This document shows positions 1 through 13,613 of a stretch of 64,000 nucleotides of DNA, one piece after another (position 1 is the stretch's first letter; each line of letters starts with the position of its first letter). This DNA comes from Bacteroidota bacterium. GTDB taxonomy: Bacteria; Bacteroidota; Bacteroidia; 2-12-FULL-35-15. The stretch spans positions 1 to 64,000 of the forward strand of contig JAQZBR010000004.1 in assembly GCA_029237775.1 (NCBI GenBank). The letters run 5' to 3'. Below the pieces are notes generated by a model. That model searched no databases. It was not told where the DNA came from and was given only the letters and a program-made list of their open reading frames with translations. The position numbers and the translations under genes are program-made.

Positions 1-141
1 TTATATTATCATAAAAGAGTTGAAGAAGGTAAACATAAAATGGTGGCGTTAAATATTATCCGGAACAAGATCGTATCGAGGATATTTGCAACGGTGAAAA
101 GAGGAACTCCTTATGTAGAAATAAGTAAGTTTGCTGCCTGA
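1..141 (+). CDS. IS110-family transposase, C-terminal fragment (cut by window start)
   Basis: The plus frame is open from base 1 to a TGA at 139-141 and encodes 46 residues. It contains YYHKRVEEGKHKMVALN, then IRNKIVSRIFATVKRGTPYV, and ends KFAA. This pattern (YY.RK..EGK.KM..LN..RNK...R.FA..KR.TPY) is typical of the end of the transposase domain of IS110/IS1111-family DEDD transposases. The start and catalytic part lie outside the window. The element's downstream end must fall between 142 and about 185, immediately next to the first attC-like site. IS110-family elements target specific sites, and one known subgroup inserts in integron attC sites, so the position is suggestive. Whether the copy is intact cannot be judged. 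Confidence 0.8.
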   Translation, partial: LYYHKRVEEGKHKMVALNIIRNKIVSRIFATVKRGTPYVEISKFAA

Positions 142-180
142 AAAACATTGTAGAAAAAACTTGTTTTTGATCTTGGAATG

Positions 181-345
181 CGGCTAGGCATCAGTTGCGG
201 ATTTGAAAAGCAAAATTGTCTTGACCGATAAACTTGATTAAAAGTACAAAAGGAAATTAGCAAATGCCAGAAATTTCGCGAAGCAACCAAATTTGCATTT
301 GCGAACTTGCAGAAAGCCGCAATTGTGATTAGCCGGTGTTAGGCG
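181..345 (-). repeat. attC-like site a (distal end, next to IS110)
   Basis: On the minus strand the site starts with the core GCCTAAC (344-338), a perfect match to RYYYAAC. The outer arms GGCTAATCACAATTGCGG (minus strand, about 335-318) and GGCTAGGCATCAGTTGCGG (plus strand, about 182-200) pair imperfectly. The inner hairpin GCAAATGC (260-267) / GCATTTGC (295-302) is shared with sites b and d. The far end lacks the expected AACG-TTAG junction and instead runs into the IS110-side sequence, so this site is probably interrupted or degenerate. Confidence 0.65.
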
Positions 346-996
346 ATGGGCACTTTAGGTCTATTAGTCAGATCGGAAACAAAGCAAAGTAATGATAGCG
401 CTTTTAAGCTGTTCATTTCTGTTCCATAAGTCATATTGAGTCCGTGCATGCACTCATGTCTGTTTAAGTCCGATGAGTAATTTTTCTTGTTTTCCGTAAA
501 ACTGTCGATGCCACGAATTTTTGTAATTACCTCAATAAGATATTCTGAGCTTTGAGCTTCAGCAAGTTGTTTCTTCAGTCTCGCCTTGTCTTTTGAGATC
601 TTGAATAAGTTTCCTTCAAATATTCCGTCTGCCTGTGATAAGAAAAGGAGAGTTGAAGCAGCGTATAACTTTTTATTATGACAATGTAAAGCTTGTTTTA
701 AAAGTTCGGCACGTTTCAGGGTTGTTACTCGATAATTTTAAAATAAAATATTTTCTGTTAGATTTATAAAATTTCATCATTGCAAGGTCAACGTTGCTGT
801 CTTTTTTTAATAGCGCATTAGCTGCACCAGAAAAAATGTCTCCGAGTCTCATATCCATTGACACATACCAGCCTTTGTCTGCTAAAATGTCTAGGCACTT
901 TTTAAAATTATGGTCTAGTTTTTTAACAGCAGTACCGAAGTCTCTAGCGAATTTGTCAAACTCGCTAAAACTTGCTTTCATTGGTTCTACAATCAT
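339..996 (-). pseudogene. Cassette 5 gene, frameshifted (unknown family)
   Basis: The 5' half reads from ATG 996 (MIVEPMKASFSEFDKFA...). It stays in frame for about 85 codons and then runs out of frame to a stop at 676. From about 735 a second frame is open down to a TAA at 341-339 and carries RAELLKQALHCHNKKLYA, then LLFLSQADGIFEGNLFKI. Its stop lies inside the GCCTAAC core of attC-like site a. Together the two halves would form one protein of about 215 residues, so a single frameshift in the A/T-rich stretch near 735-760 is the simplest reading. The ALxxHxxxxYxxxxLLFLxQADGI pattern resembles a widespread uncharacterised family; I cannot name a function. A sequencing error in the homopolymer runs is possible. 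Confidence 0.6.
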
Positions 997-1020
997 TCTT
1001 AGGATGTTTTTGTTGCCTTG

Positions 1021-1201
1021 CGCCTAACGTTCCGCAGCTTTGCGCTGTGCGGGATTCAAAGCACAACATTGTCTTAACTGAAAAACTTGGATTAAATGTA
1101 CAAAAGTAAATTAGCAAATGCCAAGAATTTCGCGAAGCAACCAAATTTAGCATTTGCGAACTAGCACGCTGCCCGCATAGCTCAAAGGTGCTGTTAGCAG
1201 T
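1021..1201 (-). repeat. attC-like site b
   Basis: Minus-strand order is ACTGCTAAC (1201-1193), the body, then AACG|TTAGGCG with the junction at 1028/1027. Outer stem arms are GCAGCTTTGCGCTGTGCGGG (1034-1053) and CCCGCATAGCTCAAAGGTGC (1172-1191). They pair with two or three extra unpaired bases on one side, as in the extrahelical bases of classical attC sites. The inner hairpin is GCAAATGC (1114-1121) / GCATTTGC (1150-1157). The body is nearly identical to site d. The in-array arms CGCCTAAC and GTTAGCAG are not complementary beyond CTAAC/GTTAG, as expected when each half belongs to a different cassette. Confidence 0.75.
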
Positions 1202-1537
1202 TGACCGGCCACACAGATTTCCGGGTGCGGTCGGGAAGAAGTCAGTTTATAAATAAAACGTCTACACACAGATTTACCAAGAAATTCCGGGAAAAACTGT
1301 CAAGCCGCGCGAGAAAATAAAACCTTTGATAATAATAAAATTATTCATTGGTTAAAAAACATTTCTGCGCTTGAGTCCGTCACGCCACAAAGAAAACACA
1401 GCTGTCTTACACTACGTAAAAGTCCACGGATACAAACACGTCTAAGCGCGAATAAAAAATTGTCAAAAGGTTTTGTTGGAAGCTAACGAGATCTTAAATT
1501 CTCACTAAGATGTCAATTTAAAAACTTCTGCCGGTTT
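1202..1537 (-). other. Cassette 4 payload without a recognisable gene
   Basis: This 336-bp payload sits between TTAGCAGT (1194-1201) and its complement ACTGCTAA (1538-1545). I see no convincing gene in it on either strand. The longest ATG frame I found on the minus strand encodes only 24 hydrophobic residues (MNNFIIIKGF...ISW). It may carry a small RNA, a promoter or a decayed gene. ORF-less cassettes are known from chromosomal integrons of other phyla. Confidence 0.6.
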
Positions 1538-1672
1538 ACTGCTAACGTTTCGCGCACTGGCGCTGTTTGGGTTCCTTACTATGTCTTTAATTCTGGAACC
1601 TGATCACAAAGCTAACTCAAATTTGTATTTCGAAGTGAAATGCCCAAATAGCGCCAGTGCGCTGTTAGGTGC
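1538..1672 (-). repeat. attC-like site c (strongest stem)
   Basis: On the minus strand the site starts GCACCTAAC (1672-1664); its in-array junction GTTAGGT (1664-1670, plus strand) matches GTTRRRY exactly. The arms at 1552-1571 (GCGCACTGGCGCTGTTTGGG) and 1643-1662 (CCCAAATAGCGCCAGTGCGC) pair over 20 bp with a single G-T wobble. The enclosed 71 bases include ACTCAAATTTGTATTTCGAA. The site is shorter than b and d and differs in sequence, although the terminal cores follow the same rule. Confidence 0.75.
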
Positions 1673-2195
1673 TGGTGTTCATTAAGGATTTCATGTCGTC
1701 AATTGGTCGGCCGTAATCTCTTTTCCCAGGTCTGCTCGCGCTAACAATAGTGTCGTTAAGCTTCCCATTAATATAAGTAATACTCTTGTTCCGCCAGTCA
1801 AAGAATTCATGTTGAACCTTAAACTGGTAAATAAATTCATTCAGTGTTCCAATAGCTTTTCTGTCGTTATTAGTTCTAGCAAGTCGAACCGGTAACAGTC
1901 GTTGCATAAGTATTAAAGCGTCAGTTCTCTCAATAACACTGTCAAATGTTAACTGTTCAATTAAACGGTCAATGAATATACTGTCGAATTTACTTAGGTC
2001 GGCTTTTTTAATGCGCGGCAGAATTACAACATAATATGTCTTATTATTAATGAACATCAAATATTTCTCTCGATCGTAAATAATAAGATGTCCATTCCAA
2101 TCACCAAACTTATTTTCTGTGGAACTATCAACAGTCGTCAGATTTGTCTGACCAACAAAGTCTTTAAGTTTATTTGAGCAGTATATTGTCGTCAT
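1665..2195 (-). CDS. Cassette 3: DUF6933-like protein
   Basis: The protein has 176 residues, starts MTTIYCSNKLKDFVG and contains GDWNGHLIIYDREKYLMFIN followed by TYYVVILPRIKKADLSK. The layout (short N-terminal strand, a W..HL...RRK-type segment, then NxxTxYxVVL) resembles the DUF6933 family, which has no known biochemical role. The gene fills its cassette: ATG lies 17 bp inside the TTAGGTGC boundary. The stop TAA (1667-1665) is part of the attC core GCACCTAAC, so the coding frame ends inside the recombination site. No signal peptide or membrane segment is evident. The family call is from memory of the motif and is moderate; the existence of the gene is near certain. Confidence 0.75.
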   Translation of the reverse strand: MTTIYCSNKLKDFVGQTNLTTVDSSTENKFGDWNGHLIIYDREKYLMFINNKTYYVVILPRIKKADLSKFDSIFIDRLIEQLTFDSVIERTDALILMQRLLPVRLARTNNDRKAIGTLNEFIYQFKVQHEFFDWRNKSITYINGKLNDTIVSASRPGKRDYGRPIDDMKSLMNTST

Positions 2196-2204
2196 TTAAC
2201 ACTT

Positions 2205-2383
2205 GCACCTAACGTTTCGCAGCTTTGCGCTGTGCGGGATTCAAAGCACAACACTGTCTTAACTGAAAACTTTATTAAATGTACAAAAGTAAATTAGCAA
2301 ATGCCAAGAATTTCGCGAAGCACCTTAATTTGCATTTGCGAACTAGCACGAACCCCGCATAGCTCAAAGGTGCTGTTAGTACC
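2205..2383 (-). repeat. attC-like site d
   Basis: Minus-strand order is GGTACTAAC (2383-2375), the body, then AACG|TTAGGTGC with the junction at 2213/2212. The body is almost the same as site b: arms GCAGCTTTGCGCTGTGCGGG and CCCGCATAGCTCAAAGGTGC, with inner hairpin GCAAATGC (2297-2304) / GCATTTGC (2332-2339). The near identity of b and d next to unrelated payloads argues for recent spread or homogenisation of one attC type. Confidence 0.75.
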
Positions 2384-2391
2384 AGTTATTT

Positions 2392-2829
2392 CTATTCTGT
2401 CTCAGGGAACCACCAACCTTCGTGTCTATGTTTATATTCTTTTCCTCTGTCGTCAATAATTTTTATCTCGCAAGTAAATGGATTTTCAGTGTATCTGTTG
2501 TCGCTTGGAAATGGTCTCGTTTTTTGAAGGTCGAATTCTATGGTCATTATCGCAACACTTACAAAATCCATTGTCGACCCGCTGCTTTTTACTAGGTCAG
2601 GAAACCATTTATTCCAATTTTCAATCGAGCTACGAATAGTGTCGGTCAGCAATAATTCAGGGCTTGCAGTATTTTTTAAAATGTCAACCTCAAGTCGGTT
2701 AAAGTTTGTCTTGCGAGCTTGTTTTAATAAATGTCCAAGGAAATAGTCATTACCAATGTGATTCATTAAGCTAATGAACGAATGTCCGAAATTGTGAGAT
2801 ACACTTTTTAATGGTTTGTGACTTGTCAT
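2392..2829 (-). CDS. Cassette 2, second gene: unknown 145-residue protein
   Basis: The protein starts MTSHKPLKSVSHNFGHSFIS. Its middle is helical, and it ends with a strand-rich segment containing CEIKIIDDRGKEYKHRHEGW and then WFPETE. I do not recognise the family. No signal peptide or membrane span is visible, so it is probably cytosolic. Its ATG overlaps the stop of the upstream gene by one base (TAATG), which implies translational coupling. The two genes share one cassette, so they probably function together. A toxin/immunity or toxin/antitoxin pair is one possibility, without direct support. Confidence 0.75.
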   Translation of the reverse strand: MTSHKPLKSVSHNFGHSFISLMNHIGNDYFLGHLLKQARKTNFNRLEVDILKNTASPELLLTDTIRSSIENWNKWFPDLVKSSGSTMDFVSVAIMTIEFDLQKTRPFPSDNRYTENPFTCEIKIIDDRGKEYKHRHEGWWFPETE

Positions 2830-3077
2830 TATTTATTTCCTATTAACTTCTTCAGCATATAGTTACACGCCTCACTTTCGTCTGTGAAGTTTTGAATTGA
2901 GTGTTTTTCTCCTCTTTCTCTGAAATAAACTTCGTATTCGATTGTGTATTTCCCACGCTTCATAGTCAAAGAAACTTTTTCATTGTCGTCTGTCGAACCA
3001 TAAAGTCCGTGCAGATAGTATTGGTCTGCAGGAATTTTCAATTCTGTCAATTTATTATGGAGTTGTTCGATTGTCAT
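2829..3077 (-). CDS. Cassette 2, first gene: unknown 82-residue protein
   Basis: The small charged protein reads MTIEQLHNKLTELKIPADQY, followed by LHGLYGSTDDNEKVSLTMKR and EYEVYFRERGEKHS. It then has an acidic patch (TDESEACNYM) and a basic end. Its size and fold-like pattern (N-terminal helix, four strands, C-terminal helix) resemble small immunity-type proteins, but I cannot assign a family. ATG lies 15 bases inside the cassette boundary TTAGTACCA (3092-3084). It overlaps the downstream 145-residue gene by one base. Confidence 0.75.
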   Translation of the reverse strand: MTIEQLHNKLTELKIPADQYYLHGLYGSTDDNEKVSLTMKRGKYTIEYEVYFRERGEKHSIQNFTDESEACNYMLKKLIGNK

Positions 3078-3084
3078 TATAATT

Positions 3085-3220
3085 GGTACTAACGTTTTGC
3101 GGCCTGGCGCTCGTGCGGGTTTTTAACTAAGATCACAATTGCGGAGCTGTATTTCAAATGTACTCAAATTTGTCTTGCGGAGCAAGTTGCCAGCATGACG
3201 CCAGACCGCTGTTAGTAGCA
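3085..3220 (-). repeat. attC-like site e
   Basis: Minus-strand order is TGCTACTAAC (3220-3211), the body, then AACG|TTAGTACC with the junction at 3093/3092. Arms GCGGCCTGGCGCTCGTGC (about 3100-3117) and GCATGACGCCAGACCGC (about 3193-3209) pair with a few mismatches. The body lacks the GCAAATGC inner hairpin of sites a, b and d and is closer in length to site c. The terminal 7-mers TACTAAC and GTTAGTA deviate from the strict RYYYAAC/GTTRRRY consensus. Confidence 0.7.
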
Positions 3221-3224
3221 GGCT

Positions 3225-4220
3225 TTACTTTTGTCGTTTTATTGCTACGCAGCGAAATCCTAACCACAGTTCAGGTTTCGTATATATTATTTCTGTCTTG
3301 TTATAGCTGTCTTTAGCATGATGAAAATAGCTGCCACCTTTTGCGACACCCTTTTTTAATGTCATTTCAGCCACGTTTCCTTGCACATTCCAAACGTCTT
3401 TTAAATTCTTGTGTCGGCTGGATTTCGAAAGAACATGTGAATAGCCATTTATACTTCGTCTTCCATAATCTAATTGATCGTCCTTGTCAATTGTTTTGGG
3501 AGCAAGGGCTCCTTTGTAATTAAAGTTAGACGTTTTTTTTTCATTAATACTGTCAGTTTGCGAATTCATTCTTACAAACTCTTCTTCTGTCGGGAGTCTG
3601 TAGATGCATGCATAGTCGTAGTCAATGGTCGTAATACCTCTGGAAGTGGAATCAATTTTAGGAAGCCACCTAAGACTGTCTAAAGTTGTTCTCCATTTGC
3701 AGAAAGCGACAGCTTGGTCGTAACTTATTCCAGCAATCGGGTGTTGAAGATAGTTTCTCAAATTCTTTCTGCTCTTTTTATCTTTTATAAGAGCAGAATT
3801 GAATGGAATAAATGCAAAGCCATCCAATGAACGAATTCTTAATAAGTCACAGGTCGTACACTTTGTAAATAGGTCGTGATTTTGGGTGCTTATTATAAAC
3901 TCATTTATTGGAAGAAGTGTTGAATCCAGTGGACTGTTTTTTAGTTGGTTCTGAATACTTTCAGGTATCTTTCTAGCAGTTGTTGTTATGGGTTTAGTCA
4001 AATCGCTATAATAAATATAGTTCAGCCATTCGCCAATTGTTATCTCAGTTTGCTCGGCAAGAAAGTCTTCTTTTATTGCTAAGAAACCCCAACGTCCGCG
4101 ATGGAAATTCCAATAGGAGTTAATACTGTCATTTTTAGCATACTGGTCTTTTGACTTGTCATTTTGTCCAAATGTTAGTGTACAACTTAGAAGAAAAATA
4201 AATGATAAAAGAGTCTTCAT
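3225..4220 (-). CDS. Cassette 1: FGE-sulfatase-domain protein, secreted
   Basis: The protein has 331 residues. A Sec signal peptide (MKTLLSFIFLLSCTLTFGQ) precedes a formylglycine-generating-enzyme/SUMF1-type domain. Visible hallmarks are EDFLAEQTEITIGEWLNYIY near the start, GISYDQAVAFCKWR, YRLPTEEEFVRM, WNVQGNVAEM, KGGSYFHH and WLGFRCV at the C-terminus. Proteins of this fold in Bacteroidota include gliding/T9SS components such as GldJ/GldK as well as unrelated enzymes; enzymatic formylglycine formation is not implied. There is no lipobox cysteine at the signal cleavage site. The gene starts 26 bases inside the cassette boundary, and its stop is 5 bases before the attC core. It is the largest payload and the one closest to the recombinase. 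Confidence 0.8.
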   Translation of the reverse strand: MKTLLSFIFLLSCTLTFGQNDKSKDQYAKNDSINSYWNFHRGRWGFLAIKEDFLAEQTEITIGEWLNYIYYSDLTKPITTTARKIPESIQNQLKNSPLDSTLLPINEFIISTQNHDLFTKCTTCDLLRIRSLDGFAFIPFNSALIKDKKSRKNLRNYLQHPIAGISYDQAVAFCKWRTTLDSLRWLPKIDSTSRGITTIDYDYACIYRLPTEEEFVRMNSQTDSINEKKTSNFNYKGALAPKTIDKDDQLDYGRRSINGYSHVLSKSSRHKNLKDVWNVQGNVAEMTLKKGVAKGGSYFHHAKDSYNKTEIIYTKPELWLGFRCVAIKRQK

Positions 4221-4237
4221 GTGATAGTCTTTAAGCT

Positions 4238-4349
4238 TGCTACTAACTTACTTATATAACCGGTTTTTCCACCTCTAACCCCACAATTACCTCTCTTTTT
4301 GGCTGGCTTTCCCCGGTTTTCATTTTTTGGAATCCCGTATTATTTTTTG
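4238..4349 (-). other. attI-like junction region
   Basis: The recombinase stop is at 4350 and the first cassette boundary G|TTAGTAGCA is at 4247/4246 (minus strand), leaving about 100 bp for an attachment site. TTAGTAGCA here (4246-4238) is complementary to the 3' core of cassette 1 (3212-3220), which sets the cassette edge. Unlike the attC sites there is no long palindrome. Two CCGGTTTT copies (4260-4267, 4313-4320) and two ACCTCT copies (4271-4276, 4289-4294), plus palindrome AACCGGTT (4258-4265), could be recombinase-binding repeats like those of attI. This is inference from layout. Confidence 0.45.
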
Positions 4350-5477
4350 TTAAAATTTCAATTTTAGCTTCTCGATCGGACTCAAAACCCTGCTTAATCC
4401 ATCATTCGTTACATGCGTATAGATCTGAGTCGTTTTCGGACTCTTATGCCCCAACAACTCTTGTATATAACGCAGGTTAGTTCCTCCTTCCAGCAAATGT
4501 GTCGCATAGCTGTGTCGCAATGTATGCAAGCTAACACTTTTCTTTATCCCTGCCAACTTTTTGGCCTTGTGAAACACTTCTTCCAGACTACTCTCAGTAT
4601 ATTTTCCAGCCTTCTGCCCCTCGAATAAATAGTGTTGTGGTTTGTACTCCTTGTAATAGAGACGAAGCATCTCCAGGATCATTTCTGATAAAGGAACCAT
4701 CCTGTCTTTCTTCCCCTTTGCTGCTTTTATGGATATGAACATACGCTTCGAATCAATATCCTCCAACCGCAAATTCAATAGCTCACTCCTCCGTAACCCG
4801 CCCGAATAGATCAGCGCAAGCATCGTTTTATGTTTAATATTCTCCAGGCTGTTCAGCATACCCGCAACTTCCTCCGGACTTAATATCACCGGGAGAACAA
4901 ATGACCTTTTGGGCCGGTGAATTTCTTCTGCATTAAGTTTTCGGCTCTGAATGGTCCTGAAAAATAACTTCAACGCATTCACCACCTGATTCTGGTAAGA
5001 AGCAGATAAGCCATTCTTTAAAATATAGTCATTATTATATCTGATCACATCCTCATTGCTGATCTCCGCTAAAGCCCTGTCATTACAGAATTTCAAAAAC
5101 GATTTCAGCGCCTCCACATAAGTAAGGATTGTACTTTCGCTATACCTTCTTGAACTCATCCAGCTCTTAAACCTTTCTATATCTGCCAACACTTCTTCAG
5201 ATAATATTGTATCCTTCAATGGTTCCCGCTGCTCCGCTATTTTCGCCAACTTTTCCTTTAATCCCGGGGCCATCAGCCTTGCCTTCTCTTTAAAGATCTC
5301 CTTCGACCTTGTAAGCATCTCCGCTTTAAATAACACGTACCACCCCTTATAAGTGCGGCTCCAGCTCGCTCCCGGCAATGTCTTGACAAGGCTTGTCAGC
5401 TCAGTATCGTACGGAAATTTAAATAGCAGGATCTGTTTTCCTTTGTGATTAACTATATCTAAAATTACTTCTTTCAT
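4350..5477 (-). CDS. Tyrosine recombinase, candidate integrase of the cassette array
   Basis: The protein has 375 residues. An N-terminal extra domain (1-75, with TYKGWYVLF) precedes a SAM-like core-binding domain (about 97-180) and the catalytic domain (195-375). The catalytic set is complete: R229 (GGLRRSELL), K254 (AAKGKKDR), H318-x-x-R321 (HTLRHSYATHLLE), H344 (ELLGHKS) and Y353 (QIYTHV). The end HVTNDGLSRVLSPIEK recalls the HVLNRG..GV.SP ending of integron integrases. The R-to-HxxR spacing is only 89 residues, as in XerC/D, so the IntI-specific insertion is absent. It is transcribed towards the cassettes. It may integrate and excise the cassettes; a phage-type or Xer-like role unrelated to the array cannot be excluded. 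Confidence 0.9.
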   Translation of the reverse strand: MKEVILDIVNHKGKQILLFKFPYDTELTSLVKTLPGASWSRTYKGWYVLFKAEMLTRSKEIFKEKARLMAPGLKEKLAKIAEQREPLKDTILSEEVLADIERFKSWMSSRRYSESTILTYVEALKSFLKFCNDRALAEISNEDVIRYNNDYILKNGLSASYQNQVVNALKLFFRTIQSRKLNAEEIHRPKRSFVLPVILSPEEVAGMLNSLENIKHKTMLALIYSGGLRRSELLNLRLEDIDSKRMFISIKAAKGKKDRMVPLSEMILEMLRLYYKEYKPQHYLFEGQKAGKYTESSLEEVFHKAKKLAGIKKSVSLHTLRHSYATHLLEGGTNLRYIQELLGHKSPKTTQIYTHVTNDGLSRVLSPIEKLKLKF

Positions 5478-5571
5478 AATGCGGCTAATATATTAAAAGC
5501 TGCATTCTCCCGATAGCCAATTATCTGATTGCTATTATCCGTTGCAAGGCTTTAAACTCAAAACATTTCAG

Positions 5572-5579
5572 TATTTTTG
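5572..5579 (+). promoter_or_regulatory. Bacteroidota -7 element upstream of lhgO
   Basis: TATTTTTG fits TAnnTTTG, 18 bases before the GTG start. No clear -33 TTTG at the usual spacing was found. Confidence 0.45.
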
Positions 5580-5597
5580 CATAAATTTTAAATTCCT

Positions 5598-6818
5598 GTG
5601 GAAAACAATCATTTCGACATAATCATAGTGGGTGGCGGCATTGTCGGACTCGCGTCTGCATACAAGATCAATCTAAAATATCCTGAGAAAAAAATTCTTG
5701 TTCTTGAAAAAGAAAAGGAAGTAGCCGCTCATCAAACAGGTCATAATTCAGGTGTTATCCATTCCGGATTGTATTACAAACCCGGCTCCTATAAAGCTAA
5801 AAATTGTGTTGATGGAAGGCGTGAGCTTGTCGCTTTCGCGAAAGAACACAATATCAAACACGATATCTGCGGAAAAATTGTTGTCGCCACCGATCCGTCT
5901 GAGCTTGCGCACATGAATAAAGTTTATAACAACGGCATCGCAAATGGTGTTGAAGGGGTTGAAAAAATTGATGCTAAAAGAATCAGGGAAATCGAACCCT
6001 ATTGTGTCGGGATCGAAGGGCTCTGGGTTCCATGTACCGGAATCATTGATTATGCAGATGTCTCTAGAAAATACGTTGAGCTTATCCATTCTAAATTTAA
6101 AGGGAGTAAGGTGTTGACTGATCACGAAGTGACAGCCTTCGAAAAACATAACAGCCATACTTCTGTCATCACTCCCAAAGGTACGTTCAAAGGAAATTAC
6201 ATCATTACCTGTGCCGGACTGCAAAGTGACCGCATCGCGAAAAAAGAAGGTGCAAAGACCGATGCCGCTATCGTAGGTTTCCGTGGTGATTACTTTGACC
6301 TTACCGACAAAGGGCTAAGCAAAGTGAAGAATTTAATTTACCCTGTTCCAAACCCCAAATACCCTTTCCTTGGTGTGCATTTCACGCGGATGATCCATGG
6401 TGGTACCGAATGCGGACCTAATGCCGTTTTTGTTTTCAAACGCGAAGGTTATGGCAAAACAGATTTTTCTTTAACAGATACGGCTGAAGCATTTGCCTTC
6501 AGAGGTACCTGGAAATTCTTTGCAAAGAATATGAAATTCGGATGGGATGAATATCGTGGTGCTTTTTCCAAAACATTTTTCCTGAAGCGTCTCCGCAAAT
6601 TAATTCCTACACTCGAAATGGATGACCTGAAGCCTGGACGTGCCGGAGTGCGCGCAATGGCTTTGGCTCCGGAAGGTGAGATGATCGATGATTTTAAAAT
6701 TGAAGTAAATGGCAATGCAATTCACGTTTTGAATGCACCATCACCGGCTGCAACTTCTTCTCTGGCGATCGGCACCGCCATCCAGCAAATGGCCACGGAG
6801 CATTTTAATTTGTCTTAA
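5598..6818 (+). CDS. lhgO: L-2-hydroxyglutarate oxidase
   Basis: FAD-dependent oxidase of 406 residues that oxidises L-2-hydroxyglutarate to 2-oxoglutarate. The dinucleotide-binding motif IIIVGGGIVGLASAY lies near residues 8-22, followed by LVLEKEKEVAAHQTGHNSGV and IHSGLYYKPGSYKAKNC, the family signature around the flavin. The C-terminus has GRAGVRAMAL and the FAD-closing segment NAPSPAATSSLAIG. Length matches the family (about 400). The start is GTG at 5598, fixed by the FDIIIVGGG strand beginning five residues later. It stands alone, divergent from the recombinase gene. Confidence 0.92.
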   Translation: MENNHFDIIIVGGGIVGLASAYKINLKYPEKKILVLEKEKEVAAHQTGHNSGVIHSGLYYKPGSYKAKNCVDGRRELVAFAKEHNIKHDICGKIVVATDPSELAHMNKVYNNGIANGVEGVEKIDAKRIREIEPYCVGIEGLWVPCTGIIDYADVSRKYVELIHSKFKGSKVLTDHEVTAFEKHNSHTSVITPKGTFKGNYIITCAGLQSDRIAKKEGAKTDAAIVGFRGDYFDLTDKGLSKVKNLIYPVPNPKYPFLGVHFTRMIHGGTECGPNAVFVFKREGYGKTDFSLTDTAEAFAFRGTWKFFAKNMKFGWDEYRGAFSKTFFLKRLRKLIPTLEMDDLKPGRAGVRAMALAPEGEMIDDFKIEVNGNAIHVLNAPSPAATSSLAIGTAIQQMATEHFNLS

Positions 6819-6941
6819 AAATAAGTAAGCATTTCATCCAACAAACTGGCTGCAACAATAAATACATCCTATGTGCTGTGAAATAGCTGGTTCCCACGCG
6901 TTCGATTTGGAATTTCTCATGAAATTTTGCGCCTTTTTACG

Positions 6942-6949
6942 TATATTTG
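6942..6949 (+). promoter_or_regulatory. Bacteroidota -7 element of the toxin-antitoxin operon
   Basis: TATATTTG is a perfect TAnnTTTG, only four bases before the ATG at 6954. The transcript would be nearly leaderless, and this decides the start over an in-frame upstream ATG at 6927. Confidence 0.6.
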
Positions 6950-6953
6950 TGCT

Positions 6954-7148
6954 ATGAAAGCAATGGTCATTACACCAAAAAATTCAGCCGAATATAAGTT
7001 CATTAATGACTTATTAAATAAGCTTGGTATTTCGTCAGCCACCATGACTGAAGAGGAATTGGAAGATATTGGTCTTTCTAAACTGCTTAAATCGGTTGAT
7101 AAAACTAAAAAAGCAAGCAAGAAGTCGATCATGCAAAAACTGAAGTAA
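6954..7148 (+). CDS. Antitoxin of a RelE/ParE-type module
   Basis: The 64-residue protein starts MKAMVITPKNSAEYKFINDL. Its acidic helix TMTEEELEDIG is followed by a very basic tail (KTKKASKKSIMQKLK). Short proteins of this kind directly before a RelE-fold toxin bind and neutralise it and often autoregulate the operon; no DNA-binding domain can be recognised from sequence alone here. The stop overlaps the toxin ATG (TAATG at 7146-7150). I chose the ATG at 6954 because the promoter-like TATATTTG lies between it and the upstream ATG. Confidence 0.75.
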   Translation: MKAMVITPKNSAEYKFINDLLNKLGISSATMTEEELEDIGLSKLLKSVDKTKKASKKSIMQKLK

Positions 7149-7414
7149 TGCAGGTCGAGTTTCTAAGTAAATTCTCTAAGGATATTGATCACATTTCAGT
7201 CAAATCCGTCAGAACAAATTTGTCCAGGTTGATCGATTTGATCGAGTCCGAAGAAAATCTGAATAATATTCCTCACCTTAAAAAACTTGCTGGTCACAGA
7301 TCGGCATATAGAGTTCGACTCGGTGATTATAGAGTTGGTTTTTTTTACGAAAACCATAAAGTCATTTTCGCAGGAGTGATTCACCGAAAAGACATTTATA
7401 AAGTTTTTCCGTAA
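7148..7414 (+). CDS. RelE/ParE-superfamily toxin
   Basis: The protein has 88 residues. The N-terminal strand and helix (MQVEFLSKFSKDIDHISVK) are followed by the strand pattern LKKLAGHRSAYRVRLGDYRV, then GFFYENHKVIFAGVIHRKDI and YKVFP. The core R.....YR.R.GDYRVGF...........HR..IYK is the hallmark of this fold. Members cleave ribosome-bound mRNA (RelE) or poison gyrase (ParE); which applies is not decidable here. It is translationally coupled to the antitoxin by a one-base overlap. Confidence 0.85.
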   Translation: MQVEFLSKFSKDIDHISVKSVRTNLSRLIDLIESEENLNNIPHLKKLAGHRSAYRVRLGDYRVGFFYENHKVIFAGVIHRKDIYKVFP

Positions 7415-7448
7415 GTTTTTGTTAAGAAATACATTATCTATATTCACC

Positions 7449-8372
7449 TTGAAAAAAAAGTACCTTTTAATATTTCTAATAACGTTTTGCAGCAATGCAT
7501 ACTCGTTTTCCGGTGCTCATGATTCGGTACCATACGTGAAAGCCGCAGGTATTATGTCTTCTACGCTTGTACGCACAACAGGCTCCTATAAATTATATGA
7601 TATAACTATTGATGCATTTGATCCGCAAGGAAATAAAATGCCGGTAAGAGTCCATTTTTTTGAAAACAAAAAACCGGGTAAGCTGCCCATGCTCTTAATG
7701 ATCCCTCCTATCCATGGCGTTACAGCCAGGGAAAAAAAAGTGAGCGAACATTTCATCTCCTGCGGTTATCACTCAGTTGTGCTCGAACCTGTTAAAGACA
7801 TTACCGACAGCTCCCTGACCTTAAATAATTTTAATAACAGCCTGCTCTCTTTTGTTAGTGCTGTCCGCTCAACAATAGATGTGTTTGAAGCAAAAGAACA
7901 GGTCGATCCTAAAAATTTGTTTGTCTGGGCGGCTAGTATGGGAGCATGCTATGGGAGTATTGCGGTAAGCCTGGATAAACGGATTAACGCTGCCATTTTC
8001 ATCGTTGGGGGAACTCCTATTGCCAACATCGTGACCGAATCACAGCAGGAGAATGTAGCCAAATACAGGCGCGAGCGAATGCAGGAAGAACATCTTGATT
8101 CCATCGAAGCATTCCGGAATAAGCTAAGAGAGAATATCGCCATCGAAGTGGCACAATTTGCCAAACAAAGAAGCTCCTCTGATCTGATGTTCGTCATTGC
8201 ACTTAAAGACCACAGTGTTCCCACCCAATATCAGTTTCAGCTGGCAAAAGCTTTTGGCGACAATGCTACCGTGATCCAGAATAATGCCGGGCATGCAGCC
8301 ACCATATTAAAGATGCATCTTTCAAACCTCGATCAGTTCTCGGATTTTACAAATAGTAAACTAAAACACTGA
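7449..8372 (+). CDS. Secreted alpha/beta hydrolase
   Basis: The signal peptide KKKYLLIFLITFCSNAYS is followed by an alpha/beta-hydrolase domain. Putative catalytic residues are the serine in WAASMGACYG (nucleophile elbow, AxSxG variant), the aspartate in IALKDHSVP and the histidine in NNAGHAAT. The oxyanion region is MIPPIHGV. The TTG at 7449 puts the start right at the lysine-rich n-region; an alternative TTG lies at 7419. It probably acts on esters or amides in the periplasm; the substrate is unknown. It starts 34 bases after the toxin gene and is followed after two bases by a small membrane protein. Confidence 0.75.
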   Translation: MKKKYLLIFLITFCSNAYSFSGAHDSVPYVKAAGIMSSTLVRTTGSYKLYDITIDAFDPQGNKMPVRVHFFENKKPGKLPMLLMIPPIHGVTAREKKVSEHFISCGYHSVVLEPVKDITDSSLTLNNFNNSLLSFVSAVRSTIDVFEAKEQVDPKNLFVWAASMGACYGSIAVSLDKRINAAIFIVGGTPIANIVTESQQENVAKYRRERMQEEHLDSIEAFRNKLRENIAIEVAQFAKQRSSSDLMFVIALKDHSVPTQYQFQLAKAFGDNATVIQNNAGHAATILKMHLSNLDQFSDFTNSKLKH

Positions 8373-8374
8373 AA

Positions 8375-8737
8375 ATGAAAATTGCACTTCTTTACCTGAT
8401 GTCGGTTATCTATTTTGCAGCAGGTGTCTATCACTTCGTAAACGCAAAAATGTATCTCCGCATCATGCCTAAAGCTTTGCCTCTGAACACTCATCTTCCG
8501 CTGGTATACATCAGCGGTGTCTGTGAGATAATTGTTGCTCTGCTTTTGATCCCCGAAAGCACGCGCCCGCTCGGAGCCTGGCTCACCATTGCATTGCTTA
8601 TCGCTGTGTTTCCTGCCAATATTCAGATGCTTATCTCATTCTATCAAAAACAACATTCTGCATTATGGATCGCAGTATTAAGAATTCCTTTACAATTCGT
8701 TCTCATCTGGTGGGCCTGGCTTTATACTAAAAACTAA
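8375..8737 (+). CDS. DoxX/MauE-like four-helix membrane protein
   Basis: The 120-residue protein has four predicted transmembrane segments: ALLYLMSVIYFAAGVYHFVN, LPLVYISGVCEIIVALLLI, WLTIALLIAVFPANIQMLI and a C-terminal one around VLRIPLQFVLIWWAWLY. The motif AGVYHFVN and the PLVYISGVCEI helix are typical of the DoxX-like family (PF13564/PF07681 type). Biochemical roles of these proteins are poorly known. It follows the hydrolase after two bases, so the two are probably co-transcribed. Confidence 0.75.
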   Translation: MKIALLYLMSVIYFAAGVYHFVNAKMYLRIMPKALPLNTHLPLVYISGVCEIIVALLLIPESTRPLGAWLTIALLIAVFPANIQMLISFYQKQHSALWIAVLRIPLQFVLIWWAWLYTKN

Positions 8738-8755
8738 AGATCTGCATTCAAATCT

Positions 8756-8763
8756 TATCTTTG
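8756..8763 (+). promoter_or_regulatory. Bacteroidota -7 element upstream of the 945-residue OMP gene
   Basis: TATCTTTG (TAnnTTTG) lies 61 bases before the ATG at 8825. No TTTG at -33 spacing was seen. Confidence 0.45.
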
Positions 8764-8824
8764 TATTTACCGGATTAAACCATCAGCGGTAAGATCTGTC
8801 TCTAAGTATTTCAATTACTGTTCA

Positions 8825-11662
8825 ATGAAGCGTAGCTCAATTATTTTTTTCTTTCTTCTTTTTTCCTCACTATCTGCATTCGCACAAAACACACTTAGTG
8901 GCTCTTTAACCGATAAGTCTGACAATTCACCTTTGATCGGTGCGAGTGCCGTTCTTTTATTCCCTTCCGACTCTTCAATTTACAAAGGCGCTTCCGCAGA
9001 TGTGAATGGCCGTTACAACATTGAGAATGTTAAAGCCGGAAAATATATCCTGAAGATCACTTACATAGGTTACAATGATCATTTCCGTGACCTCCAAATG
9101 CCCGCAACCTCCCTTAACCTTGAAAACATTGCAATGCAGTCATCCAGCCGCCTTTTGAAGGACGTGCTCATCGAAGAGAAAGCTACCACGGCAGTTCAAA
9201 AAGGCGATACAACGCAATACAATGCAAACAGCTACAAAACAAATCCCGATGCAAATGCTGAAGATCTCATCACTAAGATGTCCGGTATAACCACTACGAA
9301 CGGGAAGATCCAGGCGCATGGTGAAGATGTTAAAAAAGTATTGGTGGATGGAAAGCCTTTTTTCGGTGATGATCCGAATGCAGTTCTTAAAAATTTACCG
9401 GCTGAAGTGATAGATAAAATTCAGGTTTTCGATCAGCAAAGTGATCAGTCAAAATTCACAGGCGTGAATGACGGCAACACTTCCAAAGCGATCAACATCA
9501 TCACAAAGCCGGGTATGAAGAATGGAACATTCGGTAAAGCATATGCAGGATACGGTTATGATAATGTCTACAAAGCCGGACTCAATCTGAACTTCTTTAA
9601 AGGCGATCGCAGACTTTCAATTGTATCGCAATCAAACAACATCAATGAACAAAATTTTTCTTCGGAAGATCTTGCCGGAGTAATGAGTTCCGGTCAAGGG
9701 GGCGGAGGCCGCGGCATGCAGGGTGGCGGACCTGGCGGGCCGGGTGGAGGAAACTGGGGTGGCGGGAACAACAGCAGCAACTTCCTTGTGAACGCAAAGA
9801 ATGGCATTTCAACCACTCACGCTTTCGGAATTAATTACAGTGACAAATGGGCGAAGAAGCTGGAGCTCAGCGCCAGTTACTTTTTAAATAGCAGCGATAA
9901 TAAGGCGGTACAGTTTACAAACCGTCAATACCTGCTCGCTTCAGATTCAGGACAGGTATATAAAGAAAACAACGTCAACAGTTCCATCAATACCAATCAC
10001 CGCTTTAACATGAGGCTGGAATGGAAGTTAGATACAAACAACTCTGTTACCATCACACCAAAACTCTCCCTGCAACAAAACTCGGGAAAGAGCGAACTCT
10101 CAGGCACTAACTCTATTCAGGATGATACGCTTAACAATACGAACAGTTTGTTTAACTCTGAGACGAATGCTTTTAATTTTTCCAACGACATTCTGCTTCA
10201 GCATAAGTTCAGCAAGCAGGGACGTACCATTTCTCTCAATTTAAGTACAGCTTTAAATACTACTGATGCGAACAGTGATCTGCATTCAATGAACAACTAT
10301 TATAACGATTCGAGCTTTATCTCCAACCTTTTTGATCAGGAATCAACGCTCATAAAAAAAGGATCAACGCTTGGTGCTAACCTGACCTACACAGAGCCTG
10401 CAGGTAAGAAAGGCATAGTTCAGATCAGTTATTCGAATTCTTTTAACCAAACCGATAACGATAAAAAGACCTACAATTATTCAGCAGTAAATGACGATTA
10501 CAACGATCTGGATTCTTCCTTATCAAATGTTTTTAAAAGTAATTACACAACACATAAAGCAGGACTGGGTTATCGGGTCAACGCTGCTAAACTGATGATG
10601 ATGGTTGGGGTAAACTATCAGTATGCCGTTTTATCTGCTGATCAGTCTTTTCCATCTACGTATAAGCTGGAACGTCAATTCAACAACATTCTTCCAAACG
10701 GAATGCTCAGGTATAATTTTTCGGCTAAGAAAACATTACGCATCTTTTACAGAAGCTCTACCACCCAACCTGCCATCGATCAATTACAAAATGTTCTGAA
10801 CAATACAAATCCAACTCAATTGAGTATTGGCAATCCTGATCTAAAACAGAATTACGACAATTCTGTTTTTGTGCGTTACGGGTCAAGTAATACTGAAAAG
10901 GGGACATCTTTTTTTGCAATGATCTCAGGCACATACACTATGGATTATATCGCGAACAGTACATATACTGCTACAAAAGATACGGTAAGGAATGGCATCT
11001 TGTTGTTGAGAGGGACACAGATCACAAAGCCGGTGAATGTGGATGGCTACACAAGCATGCGAAGCTTTATCACTTATGGCTTTCCATTCAGCCAGATCAA
11101 ATCAAACCTGAACATTAACGCTAATGCGGCTTTCATTAAAACACCCGGGTTTGTAAACGATAAGATCAACTATTCAAATTCACAAACTTACGGTGGAGGG
11201 ATTTCTGTGAGCAGCAATTTCAGCACAAAAATAGATTTTTCCCTTTCCACTAATCTTACCTATAATATCGTGGAGAACACGATCAGTAAAAAGCTGAACT
11301 CGCAATATTACAATCAGAACAGCAAGGCGAAGATCAACCTGATATTCCTGAAAAGTATTGTGCTTACTTCCGAGCTTACTCACCAGTATTACAAAGGTCT
11401 TTCGGAAGGCTACAATCAGAATTATTTGCTGTGGAATGCAGGCCTTGGTTATAAATTCCTTAAGGATCAGAAAGCCGAGATCCGTTTAACCGTAAATGAC
11501 ATACTTGAACAAAACACAAGCATCACAAGAAATACAACAGAAACTTACATTGAAGATGTGCAGACAAATTTACTGCAACGTTATTTCATGCTCACTTTTT
11601 CGTACAACATCCGTTATTTTAAAAAGCCGGCAGAAAACAATCCTGATAAAAAAGCTAAATAA
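8825..11662 (+). CDS. Outer-membrane beta-barrel protein, TonB-receptor-like, with carboxypeptidase-type N-domain
   Basis: The protein has 945 residues. A signal peptide (MKRSSIIFFFLLFSSLSAFA) is followed by a carboxypeptidase regulatory-like domain (about 22-110, GSLTDKSDNSPLIGASAVLL), a plug-like segment (about 120-235, with AEDLITKMSGITTTNGKIQA) and a long barrel rich in alternating Tyr/Asn/Ser strands. No TonB box is obvious. An extended glycine-rich loop (about 294-320, GGGGRGMQGGGPGGPGGG) is inserted after the plug. The family is common in Bacteroidota and thought to import or assemble large substrates; the substrate is unknown. Its stop is directly next to the convergent downstream gene. 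Confidence 0.85.
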   Translation: MKRSSIIFFFLLFSSLSAFAQNTLSGSLTDKSDNSPLIGASAVLLFPSDSSIYKGASADVNGRYNIENVKAGKYILKITYIGYNDHFRDLQMPATSLNLENIAMQSSSRLLKDVLIEEKATTAVQKGDTTQYNANSYKTNPDANAEDLITKMSGITTTNGKIQAHGEDVKKVLVDGKPFFGDDPNAVLKNLPAEVIDKIQVFDQQSDQSKFTGVNDGNTSKAINIITKPGMKNGTFGKAYAGYGYDNVYKAGLNLNFFKGDRRLSIVSQSNNINEQNFSSEDLAGVMSSGQGGGGRGMQGGGPGGPGGGNWGGGNNSSNFLVNAKNGISTTHAFGINYSDKWAKKLELSASYFLNSSDNKAVQFTNRQYLLASDSGQVYKENNVNSSINTNHRFNMRLEWKLDTNNSVTITPKLSLQQNSGKSELSGTNSIQDDTLNNTNSLFNSETNAFNFSNDILLQHKFSKQGRTISLNLSTALNTTDANSDLHSMNNYYNDSSFISNLFDQESTLIKKGSTLGANLTYTEPAGKKGIVQISYSNSFNQTDNDKKTYNYSAVNDDYNDLDSSLSNVFKSNYTTHKAGLGYRVNAAKLMMMVGVNYQYAVLSADQSFPSTYKLERQFNNILPNGMLRYNFSAKKTLRIFYRSSTTQPAIDQLQNVLNNTNPTQLSIGNPDLKQNYDNSVFVRYGSSNTEKGTSFFAMISGTYTMDYIANSTYTATKDTVRNGILLLRGTQITKPVNVDGYTSMRSFITYGFPFSQIKSNLNINANAAFIKTPGFVNDKINYSNSQTYGGGISVSSNFSTKIDFSLSTNLTYNIVENTISKKLNSQYYNQNSKAKINLIFLKSIVLTSELTHQYYKGLSEGYNQNYLLWNAGLGYKFLKDQKAEIRLTVNDILEQNTSITRNTTETYIEDVQTNLLQRYFMLTFSYNIRYFKKPAENNPDKKAK

Positions 11663-12832
11663 CTAATTCACTCGTGATTCAGATATGTAGTTTGTCTTTA
11701 CAAATGTTTTATTCTCAACCTGATCTGCTATTGTGATAAACATTTTTGGCCAGTCAACACCCGATCCTTTTTGTCCAAGCCTTACAATAATTAACTTCTT
11801 GGCTGGATTCACATAAACATATTGCCCCAGCATTCCCCTTGCGTAAAAATCACCTTTATCCGATGCTATCCACCACTGATGCTGATAATTCCAGGCACTT
11901 CCTTCCGTAGTGTCTATGGTAGTACATGCTTTTATCCATTCTTTTGAAACAACCTGTCGGCCGTTCCAATTTCCTTCATTCATATACAATCTTCCAAGTT
12001 TTGCATAATCGCGTGCTCGTGCATTCAGGCAGCAAAACGTTTTTTCCACGCCATTCCTTTCGCGGTCAAGGCTCCAGGTAGCATCAAATTCCATCCCCAA
12101 CGGATGCCATATCCTTTCCTGCAAATATTCGGTAACCGACTTAGTTTCTAAAGCGCGTTCGAGTACTACACCCAGCAGCTCAGCATTTACACTGGAATAT
12201 TCAAACTTCTTCCCCGGCTCAAACTTCAATTTCAATTTGCACACTTTTTTACGAATATTAATTCCGTAATAATATTCCACATTGCTTTTTCTTAAATGGT
12301 AGAAATCTTCGCTGAACGCTATACCGGATGTCATCTGCAATAGATGCTTGATCTTTACCTTATCAAAAGCTCTACATTTTAATTCCGGTATATAATTGGT
12401 TATCGGCTCTTCAACAGACTTGATATATCCATCATCGATCGCGCAGCCAACCAGCGTTGATGTGACTGCTTTCGCAATAGAGAATGAAGGAACCTGGGAG
12501 GATGCATTAAAATTATTGAAATACTTTTCATATCGGATCGTATCATCCTGAATGATCAGAAAAGCAAGCGTATTTCTTTTCAAAAGGAAAGAATCAAAAG
12601 AAAACTTATATCCATTATACCCCATGACATTCAGGTTCGAAATAAGTTGTTCCTCGTTTTGTGAACTAGTAAAAATAAATTTATCATCATGTGCGAATGC
12701 AGTGCGGAAAGGAAAGATCTTATGATCATTTACATCAGGCAGATTGTAAACAATTGTCCTTCCCATTTCACACGAACATAAGAACGTTAGTAAACATAAA
12801 AAGTACACGGATTTATAAATAGAAACCTTCAT
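11663..12832 (-). CDS. Lipoprotein serine hydrolase, beta-lactamase class C family
   Basis: The 389-residue protein has a lipoprotein signal (KSVYFLCLLTFLCSC, with the lipidated Cys probably at the SC pair). The beta-lactamase-related domain carries SFSIAKAVTS (the SxxK serine and lysine), FEYSSVNAELLG (Y-x-S in place of YxN) and HQWWIASDKGDFYARGMLGQ towards the end. Relatives are DD-peptidases, esterases and class C enzymes; a true beta-lactamase activity is not implied. It converges on the outer-membrane protein gene with no intergenic space. Confidence 0.85.
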   Translation of the reverse strand: MKVSIYKSVYFLCLLTFLCSCEMGRTIVYNLPDVNDHKIFPFRTAFAHDDKFIFTSSQNEEQLISNLNVMGYNGYKFSFDSFLLKRNTLAFLIIQDDTIRYEKYFNNFNASSQVPSFSIAKAVTSTLVGCAIDDGYIKSVEEPITNYIPELKCRAFDKVKIKHLLQMTSGIAFSEDFYHLRKSNVEYYYGINIRKKVCKLKLKFEPGKKFEYSSVNAELLGVVLERALETKSVTEYLQERIWHPLGMEFDATWSLDRERNGVEKTFCCLNARARDYAKLGRLYMNEGNWNGRQVVSKEWIKACTTIDTTEGSAWNYQHQWWIASDKGDFYARGMLGQYVYVNPAKKLIIVRLGQKGSGVDWPKMFITIADQVENKTFVKTNYISESRVN

Positions 12833-12881
12833 TTCCCCCTCCTTCTCAGTAAATATTGGTACTCACAAACTTGCAGATACG

Positions 12882-12916
12882 AAAAAAGACCTTCCATTGC
12901 TGAAAGATCTTTTTTC
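12882..12916 (-). terminator. Possible terminator after the 151-residue lipoprotein gene
   Basis: AAAAAAGA (about 12882-12889) pairs with TCTTTTTT (12908-12915) around an imperfect CTTCC/GAAAG stem, 15 bases downstream of the stop at 12931 on the minus strand. Confidence 0.4.
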
Positions 12917-12930
12917 AGAATAAACGTCAC

Positions 12931-13386
12931 CTACTTTTTTGTCAAAACAAGTGACATTGATCCATCATCCCCTCTCGATCCCTTCATCTTAAGCATTACA
13001 GCTGTCTGCTCCTCAATCTTCCAGTCAGTGCAGTTTAACAGATTCATAGGATCCACATCACCGAAATCCAATGATAAGCTCTGGTGATCACCAACAACAC
13101 CTTTCGACCACTTTCCTGTCAGCATCTTTCCTGTCCCTGCTGCTACCACTACACCTTCACCCTTAAATGTCAATGTATATGGAGTGTAAAAATCCGTATG
13201 ATCTACTCCATTCAATTCATATGCTGTAACCGCCCAGTTCCCGCGCATATTCGGATCTTCAGCATCTGTTGATCCGGCTTGACCTGTTTGTCCTACCGAT
13301 AATGGTTTCACTTCATCCTTTGAACATGATGCTAAACCTAAAGCCATCATCATGGCTACTCCTATTGTGATAAATTGATTTTTCAT
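12931..13386 (-). CDS. Small lipoprotein, lipocalin-like (paralogue 1)
   Basis: The 151-residue protein has lipobox LGLASC (MMALGLASCSKDE), then a Gly/Asp-rich linker and DPNMRGNWAVTAYELNGVDH, and several strands ending MSLVLTKK. The GNWAV segment after a DP..R/DAF lead is shared with the lipoprotein at 24599-25018, so the two are distant paralogues. This class of about 130-150 residues resembles the lipocalin-like or DUF5004 families of Bacteroidota; no function is known. It is probably anchored in the outer membrane. Confidence 0.7.
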   Translation of the reverse strand: MKNQFITIGVAMMMALGLASCSKDEVKPLSVGQTGQAGSTDAEDPNMRGNWAVTAYELNGVDHTDFYTPYTLTFKGEGVVVAAGTGKMLTGKWSKGVVGDHQSLSLDFGDVDPMNLLNCTDWKIEEQTAVMLKMKGSRGDDGSMSLVLTKK

Positions 13387-13582
13387 GACTTGTTTCCTTT
13401 CTAGTTAATTTCATATTAAAAGGGACAAAACGATTGCCACAGCGGCCCATTTTCAGGGCTCTATCGTTTAACAGGATAAAAAAAAAGCTAAAAAGGAATT
13501 CCTGTGATTTAAAGATTTTTCAATTCTGATTGGCCCTGGGGAAAAACGGACCGGGTGGGAACATGCGATTCCACATAAAACA

Positions 13583-13609
13583 AAAACTCCGGGGAATTCC
13601 CGGAGTTTT
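13583..13609 (-). terminator. Rho-independent terminator of alaS
   Basis: AAAACTCCGGG (13583-13593) and CCCGGAGTTTT (13599-13609) form a perfect 11-bp stem with loop GAATT, five bases after the alaS stop on the minus strand. Confidence 0.85.
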
Positions 13610-13613
13610 ATGA

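Follow-up and report, generated by a model that had tools for sequence, protein, structure and literature searches.

A probable integron-type cassette platform in Bacteroidia, built on an IntI relative that lacks the I2 region

Integrons are bacterial gene-swapping systems that exchange, for example, antibiotic resistance or phage defence genes. Sedentary chromosomal integrons of the VchIntIA type combine same-strand cassettes, attC hairpins, an attI site beside the integrase gene, complementarity of each cassette start to its own end, and better folding of the bottom strand. According to passages of PMC8138268, integron integrases (IntI) fall in one subgroup of simple tyrosine recombinases, within which the IntI-specific insert is incompletely conserved. 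As excerpts of the respective papers describe, IntegronFinder relies on a profile of the IntI-specific domain (PMC9668308), and survey hits were likewise chosen by that domain (PMC2426708). Bacteroidota are among the phyla listed for integrons in a section of PMC8618304, and the one complete Bacteroidetes integron named in passages of the IntegronFinder 2.0 paper is that of Salinibacter (PMC9024848). We analyzed the window, a stretch of 64,000 nucleotides (nt) from a Bacteroidota bacterium that carries, at its left end, an array of five gene cassettes next to a tyrosine recombinase gene. This locus shares the listed features with VchIntIA-type integrons and, judging from its sequence, probably works as one; unlike canonical IntI, its recombinase has no insert. 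We therefore consider it very likely to be a functional integron-type cassette platform whose recombinase is related to IntI but devoid of the I2 region. Because the defining IntI protein feature is absent, we class it apart from strict IntI integrons, as an integron class on an IntI-related recombinase. An initial sequence-only reading had held that a full integron-like array with payloads of unknown function would be notable and possibly undescribed in Bacteroidota. Integrons are in fact already reported in the phylum, and canonical IntI is common in its other classes; what stands out is that, by the definition used in the field, this enzyme does not count as an IntI. No description of insert-less recombinases paired with attC arrays was found in the open PubMed Central literature (most subscription papers and all bioRxiv preprints lay outside this scope), and the excerpted text of PMC8138268 links no insert-less member of its integron-like subgroup to attC arrays.

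On the minus strand, the recombinase gene is followed by an attI-like site and then by cassettes 1–5 with attC-like hairpins at their boundaries, the array extending leftward from the 3′ side of the gene to the contig end at which the window begins (G000:C3; Table 1). The five same-strand cassettes, hairpin boundaries and intact recombinase first read from the sequence were all present. Of the attC-like palindromes said to surround the five cassettes, four are intact, whereas the fifth, at the contig end, is truncated on its R′ side by an IS110-family insertion sequence (IS). An inverted-arm finder (R″/R′ core plus paired arms, score at least 16) picked out four sites across the full 64 kb; each lies within 1022–3217 and has a spacer of 1 nt at R″ and of 5 nt at R′. 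Six dinucleotide-shuffled versions of the sequence yielded 0, 0, 1, 0, 0 and 1 hits, which places the window hairpins beyond chance. Two stricter finders, one gapless and one requiring 6/7 R pairs, were dropped after missing three of the four window sites; they failed because adjacent R″ and R′ derive from different cassettes. The 1-versus-5 spacer geometry was also dropped as a class mark, since some canonical IntI arrays of the phylum share it (read on the other strand). Covariance model R1, built from 29 sites including 3087–3217 and 1540–1670, recovered these same four sites on the minus strand (82, 81, 52 and 52 bits). Clean AAC/GTT cores were present in 140 of 153 sites from the window and its relatives. 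No Rfam family reached its gathering score in the window.

The recombinase is not an IntI. Among curated families, its best match is NF040815 (XerA), which it passed with 231.6 bits (cut-off 220), although the title of this model, site-specific tyrosine recombinase/integron integrase, does not alone decide function. The integron integrase model TIGR02249 scored 216 bits, under its cut-off of 265, and matched in two stretches (profile positions 3–181 and 238–315) with positions 182–237 unmatched; the XerC/XerD cut-offs failed (TIGR02225, 195/330 bits; TIGR02224, 179/335 bits). The gap between the matched blocks is 22 residues long in the window protein, compared with 65 in VchIntIA (2a3v). The IntI-specific insert (I2 region) was absent from all 32 aligned members, across which the catalytic Arg, His, Arg, His and Tyr were invariant. 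The distance from the Arg motif to HxLRH was 91–96 in the 63 measurable of 81 insert-less rows and 133 in the 13 measurable of 20 canonical IntI loci; as a full discriminator it was rejected, separating the type from IntI and not from XerC/D (94–104). The protein comprises an N-terminal HARP-like domain (residues ~1–70), a SAM-like core-binding domain and a catalytic domain. An AlphaFold2 model (mean predicted local distance difference test 86.6) had VchIntIA 2a3v as its top Foldseek match (E 3e-16), alongside structural matches to the Xer proteins 4a8e and 5hxy. VIA-align of the model gave Z 23.7 against the archaeal Xer 4a8e (root-mean-square deviation (rmsd) 7.8, 256 aligned) and Z 19.3 against 2a3v (rmsd 4.6, 253 aligned). 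In a tree built by a quick method from 83 rows, with archaeal XerA not included, 13 IntI rows formed one clade (100) and 15 XerC/D rows from the same genomes a separate one (99). Fifty-three insert-less rows, that of the window among them, grouped outside IntI (support 83), and two long insert-less rows (L153, L183) fell outside both the insert-less group and IntI. The recombinase thus stands nearest to IntI and XerA while lacking the IntI-specific insert.

A mark of cassette movement lies in the cassette ends. Across 92 neighbouring site pairs (cassettes), we compared the four variable bases after GTT at the cassette start with the cassette's own R″ and found 4/4 complementarity in 74. Controls were far lower: 8/92 against the R″ of the current hairpin, 3/92 reversed, and 4.6% at random. 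Per-position match was 0.85–0.95 at positions 4–9, 0.60 at 10, 0.02 at 11, 0.70–0.84 at 12–15 and 0.17–0.30 from 16 onward, with the start base at position 11 an A in 91/92. By this profile, the cassette termini form an inverted repeat of 15 nt in which position 11 is obligatorily mismatched; as the first 15 nt tend to pair with the cassette's own last 15 nt, the R arm is whole only in the excised circle. Canonical integrons differ: in 19 pairs from six IntI arrays of the phylum, a small sample with sites chosen by eye from finder output, the match fades after ~11 nt and has no position-11 mismatch. The bottom strand of canonical attC is known to fold better, and modelled circles of the present class had a more stable bottom strand in 73/74 cases (means −32.4 kcal/mol for the bottom and −28.1 kcal/mol for the top strand). 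We read the own-end complementarity as a mark of excision and insertion via a folded strand.

That the recombinase instead acts on double-stranded, Xer-like core sites, the hairpin being incidental and strand folding uninvolved, appears improbable. The enzyme is XerA-like and without the I2 region tied to single-strand use, and the L-arm motif resembles the R arm as in a duplex core site (common GTTWnnnGnAATT, a by-eye reading only); both would suit such a duplex reaction. However, arm positions 5–7 are highly variable among cassettes yet matched at 86–89% within them, for which a fixed duplex motif offers no explanation. Inner arms, moreover, kept their pairing through double changes in 18/21 pairs, a count that is partly circular, and the obligatory mismatch at position 11 exists solely in the folded form.

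From the observed anatomy, recurrence, association with the recombinase and end signature, we infer the acting enzyme, the strand and its fold as follows. The bottom strand of attC would become single-stranded and fold, and the recombinase would bind the hairpin at its R and L arms. Cleavage would fall beside the G in the conserved C-GTT, a position that we take over from IntI by analogy. Cassettes would then be excised as circles and inserted at attI, ~100 nt from the recombinase gene, or at another attC. Candidate determinants of fold recognition without an I2 helix are the HARP-like N-terminal domain and the mismatched A at arm position 11.

The sites recur widely, and with them the recombinase. 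We searched 198 genomes of the window's class, inferred as Bacteroidia; this name and the Flavobacterium names of the genomes with G numbers derive from kinship and named relatives. R1 sites (E 0.001 or better, at most 16 candidates scored per genome) were present in 141 genomes and 93 of 120 genera, the best R1 hit reaching E ≤1e-8 in ~129 of the site-bearing genomes as read off the listing. The recombinase type (profile cut-off E 1e-58) occurred in 108 of the same genomes. Both were present in 97 genomes, the recombinase only in 11, sites only in 44 and neither in 46 (p = 2e-10, odds ratio 9.2). Leaving out seven recombinase matches near the cut-off changed the counts to 93, 8, 48 and 49 (p = 2e-11), kinship being ignored in both tests. 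Sites are also concentrated on the 3′ side of the gene: at the best 80 of 564 related-recombinase loci, the finder gave 37 hits in 245,638 bases of 3′ regions and 14 in 403,508 bases of 5′ regions, against 2 and 5 hits, respectively, after shuffling.

In 16 few-contig genomes picked for having sites, the recombinase adjoined the sites in 11, that is, in 11 of the 13 that possess it. It lay upstream of the sites on the same strand in nine (G000, G057, G414, G076, G421, G111, G429, G033 and, at 5 kb, G402), was divergent in G002 and G007, and was located elsewhere in G029 and G340; G166, G444 and G348 had no recombinase at E 1e-58. G402 also carries a further recombinase-like frame (G402:C1 1205574–1206571; 177 bits, profile A2) that overlaps or directly follows an R1 site. 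The recombinase type is present in Chryseobacterium and Kaistella as well. Among 40 genomes of the phylum's other classes, R1 sites occurred in 6/20 with canonical IntI and 8/20 without, compared with 8/9 with the present recombinase type and 6/31 without (p = 3e-4). Thus, R1 sites track this recombinase and not canonical IntI.

The attI site is placed at a characteristic distance from the gene. We located the start of cassette 1 from its pairing with the cassette's own end, leaving aside where the recombinase lies; in the window, the two are complementary across 15 nt (score 16, runner-up 10). Among 27 co-directional arrays, 20, the window's included, had attI 78–111 nt past the recombinase stop; among 10 divergent arrays, 9 had it 102–221 nt before the matched recombinase start. 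It was farther away in the remaining seven co-directional arrays and one divergent array, where the first site was possibly overlooked, and could not be placed in 2 of 39 arrays. The recombinase is co-directional with the cassettes in 27 of the 37 placed arrays, whereas the sites of the six canonical arrays are found on the 5′ side of IntI (strand assigned from spacer geometry). A second attI copy lies on contig C1 of the window's genome (L010, ~2745–2860) at the end of a second cassette array (1–2860) with no recombinase adjoining, which suggests that one recombinase serves two attI sites.

Several points weigh against this interpretation. R1 sites lack a partner recombinase at the cut-off in 44 of the 141 site-bearing genomes, and 11 of the 108 recombinase-bearing genomes lack sites. 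G076 has, within the array region that holds the recombinase, an XerC/D-like gene as well, 1.4 kb away from a site. R1 covariation is partly circular, because the training sites were found by arm pairing. Recombination and excision are deduced from sequence and not from observed events. Passages of PMC8138268 describe the insert as essential to integron function, and parts of PMC7790495 tie the insert and its I2 helix to integron function and single-strand cassette recombination. The HARP-like domain is unevenly supported: Pfam PF07443 (HARP) matched 9/32 members at E 1 or better (best 7e-8) and left the window protein unmatched, Foldseek linked the N-terminal domain to the SMARCAL1 HARP structure 4o66 weakly (E 0.12), and recombinases without the domain also adjoin attC.

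Two of these points, the site-bearing genomes without the recombinase and the XerC/D-like gene of G076, would fit an account in which these are ordinary integron cassettes, moved either by a canonical IntI that is encoded elsewhere or has since disappeared or by some other cellular tyrosine recombinase, and the adjoining recombinase is unrelated; that the window's own genome is a draft (12 contigs, 96.6% complete) would fit it too. We regard this account as very unlikely. Canonical IntI passed its cut-off in 1/73 genomes of the class, although sites occur in 141/198, and in 83/223 genomes of other classes (p = 2e-11). The single-contig genome G057 has 20 sites over 35 kb adjoining the recombinase and no IntI over the cut-off. 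Outside the class, R1 sites follow the insert-less type, and attI keeps its distance from this very gene. The frequency of canonical IntI in the phylum's other classes (83/223) is itself higher than excerpts of the literature suggest.

The HARP domain of SMARCAL1 binds structured DNA. Our domain profile matched its structure 4o66 at E 4e-4; a Foldseek search with just the N-terminal domain found nothing at E 0.001. The idea of a HARP-like domain as a universal substitute for the insert was dropped: because attC-adjacent recombinases without it exist, the domain is not generally required.

We lean, by a narrow measure, towards a broader proposal: a second integron class, sister to IntI and resident in most Bacteroidia, in which an I2-less recombinase acts on folded single-stranded attC, a HARP-like domain replaces the insert in many members, and either an ancestor moved hairpin cassettes before the insert arose or the ability had two origins. 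If so, integron-type gene capture would be a standard feature of Bacteroidia, seen here beside Flavobacterium and Chryseobacterium recombinases and on a Chryseobacterium plasmid. Since surveys define integrons by the IntI-specific domain, such a class would have been passed over or counted as integrase-less clusters. It would also bear on the view, expressed in parts of PMC7790495, that single-strand cassette recombination arrived with the I2 helix, a view testable across the two related recombinase groups.

The suggestion that the array is integron-like and was once mobile gained strong support from own-end complementarity, a fixed attI, recurrence in >100 genomes and a non-coding cassette present in two arrays: cassette 4 is homologous to a cassette of the C1 array (~946–1325; 73% over 205 nt). 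A static, decayed array, with recombinase and sites that have ceased to recombine in this strain, is highly improbable, for although attC 5 is interrupted by the IS110-family element and three array segments lie at contig ends, the 375-amino acid (aa) frame is intact with its catalytic residues, the three scored window cassettes retain complementary ends at 4/4 positions, and the non-coding cassette is common to two arrays. Farther afield, cassettes of a pond metagenome-assembled genome and of G057 share a restriction-modification payload without the cassette ends (78% over 3 kb), beyond which only 25 nt of the two stretches are similar. Window positions 1–14000 had no DNA in common with five stretches from three same-genus genomes (blastn E 1e-5) except the recombinase gene in one, and the window's cassette and flank proteins had no tblastn match in the fetched loci among the matches listed.

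Payloads point to a possible role in defence. The longest open reading frame (ORF) lies on the array strand in 78 of the 92 cassettes and on the opposite strand in 10; four have none of at least 60 aa. The G057 array (L167–L168) encodes Eco47II restriction, DndB/DpdB-like, SduA (Shedu), type II methyltransferase, AbiU and MutH-like restriction enzyme proteins. PADLOC reported defence matches for 7/8 cassette proteins, all selected long ORFs (seven from G057, one from Flavobacterium limi). With restriction, Shedu, AbiU and DndB-like payloads, the arrays may act as a phage-defence exchange. In the array of Flavobacterium fragile (L041, 3100–4300), three adjacent cassettes have no ORF >20 aa on the array strand, like window cassette 4; these are possible RNA or regulatory cassettes.

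Plasmids carry R1 sites as well. On a Chryseobacterium plasmid, six same-strand R1 sites (E 0.001 or better) come after the recombinase, and between R1 sites of this array lie a transposase of the IS110 type and the reverse transcriptase of a group II intron (L194, 18281–22682). On a mobilizable Flagellimonas plasmid (L196, 6913–7754), two R1 sites flank a gene of the dihydrofolate reductase family, with erm(F) and a shorter relative of the recombinase close by. Chryseobacterium and Kaistella belong to the same family as Riemerella. In Riemerella anatipestifer, aph(3′)-IVb was acquired without flanking homology, and its downstream segment is said, in passages of PMC13148043, to fold like attC; a gene next to an attC-like fold is common to both systems, and the words recombinase and integrase are absent from the main text of that paper.

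Table 1. Features of the cassette array in the window. R1, covariance model; finder, inverted-arm finder score.
Feature	Position	Strand	Remarks
Tyrosine recombinase, 375 aa	4350..5477	−	Intact frame; R229, H318, R321, H344, Y353
attI-like site	4233..4349	−	Crossover ~4246/4247 (ACCGGTTATATAAGTAA / GTTAGTAGC), 103 nt past recombinase stop codon
Cassette 1	3211..4247	−	ORF 3225–4220, 331 aa; complementary ends; FGE-sulfatase (formylglycine-generating enzyme-like) domain, Pfam PF03781, E 2e-11
attC 1	3087..3217	−	Finder 19.2; R1 81.3 bits (in R1 training set)
Cassette 2	2375..3093	−	ORFs 2829–3077 (82 aa) and 2392–2829 (145 aa), no family above cut-off in profile searches; ends complementary 4/4
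attC 2	2207..2381	−	Finder 22.1; R1 52.3 bits (outside training set)
Cassette 3	1664..2213	−	ORF 1665–2195, 176 aa; ends complementary 4/4; DUF6933, Pfam PF22016, E 2.7e-33; PADLOC candidate defence family PDC-S63, E 3.7e-14
attC 3	1540..1670	−	Finder 23.6; R1 82 bits (in R1 training set)
Cassette 4, ~350 nt	1193..1546	−	No ORF of at least 60 aa; ends complementary 4/4
attC 4	1022..1199	−	Finder 18.0; R1 51.6 bits (outside training set)
Cassette 5	339..1028	−	ORF 676–996, 106 aa, no family matched in profile searches
attC 5	181..345	−	R′ side cut by IS110-family element; flush with IS end
IS110-family element, right end	1..~180	+	Inserted in attC 5

The interrupted attC 5 fell below the R1 threshold at E 1; intact sites on contigs C1 and C2 match it at 92% identity, and it lies in a stretch 96% identical to one holding a C1 site cut in the same way. 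Another attC, on C1, holds a 99% identical copy of the IS right end (1–180) at the same position, and related IS elements lie flush with R1 sites in two same-genus genomes. Among 36 genomes searched, copies of this IS110-family group were at window 1–180, L010 1–182, L198 ~1096–2360 and L199 ~996–2270; by inspection, all four are flush with attC near the R′ arm, and the L198 transposase frame is split. The family name was assigned by eye, from the C-terminal end of the protein and from L199, where the frame is complete, and not by a family search. As in the IS1111-attC elements ISKpn4 and ISPst6, described in passages of PMC11187229, an IS110/IS1111-type element has inserted at one end of attC; unlike theirs, the host sites here are of the insert-less-recombinase attC type. 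A third array segment, on contig C2 (L102, 1–4800), starts with half an attC beside the apparent other end of the same IS, and may continue the window or C1 array across an assembly break. Beyond the array, window 6927–7414 holds a 73-aa ORF and a ParE-like toxin gene (Pfam E 1e-4, 23.2 bits, cut-off 23), a likely toxin-antitoxin pair.

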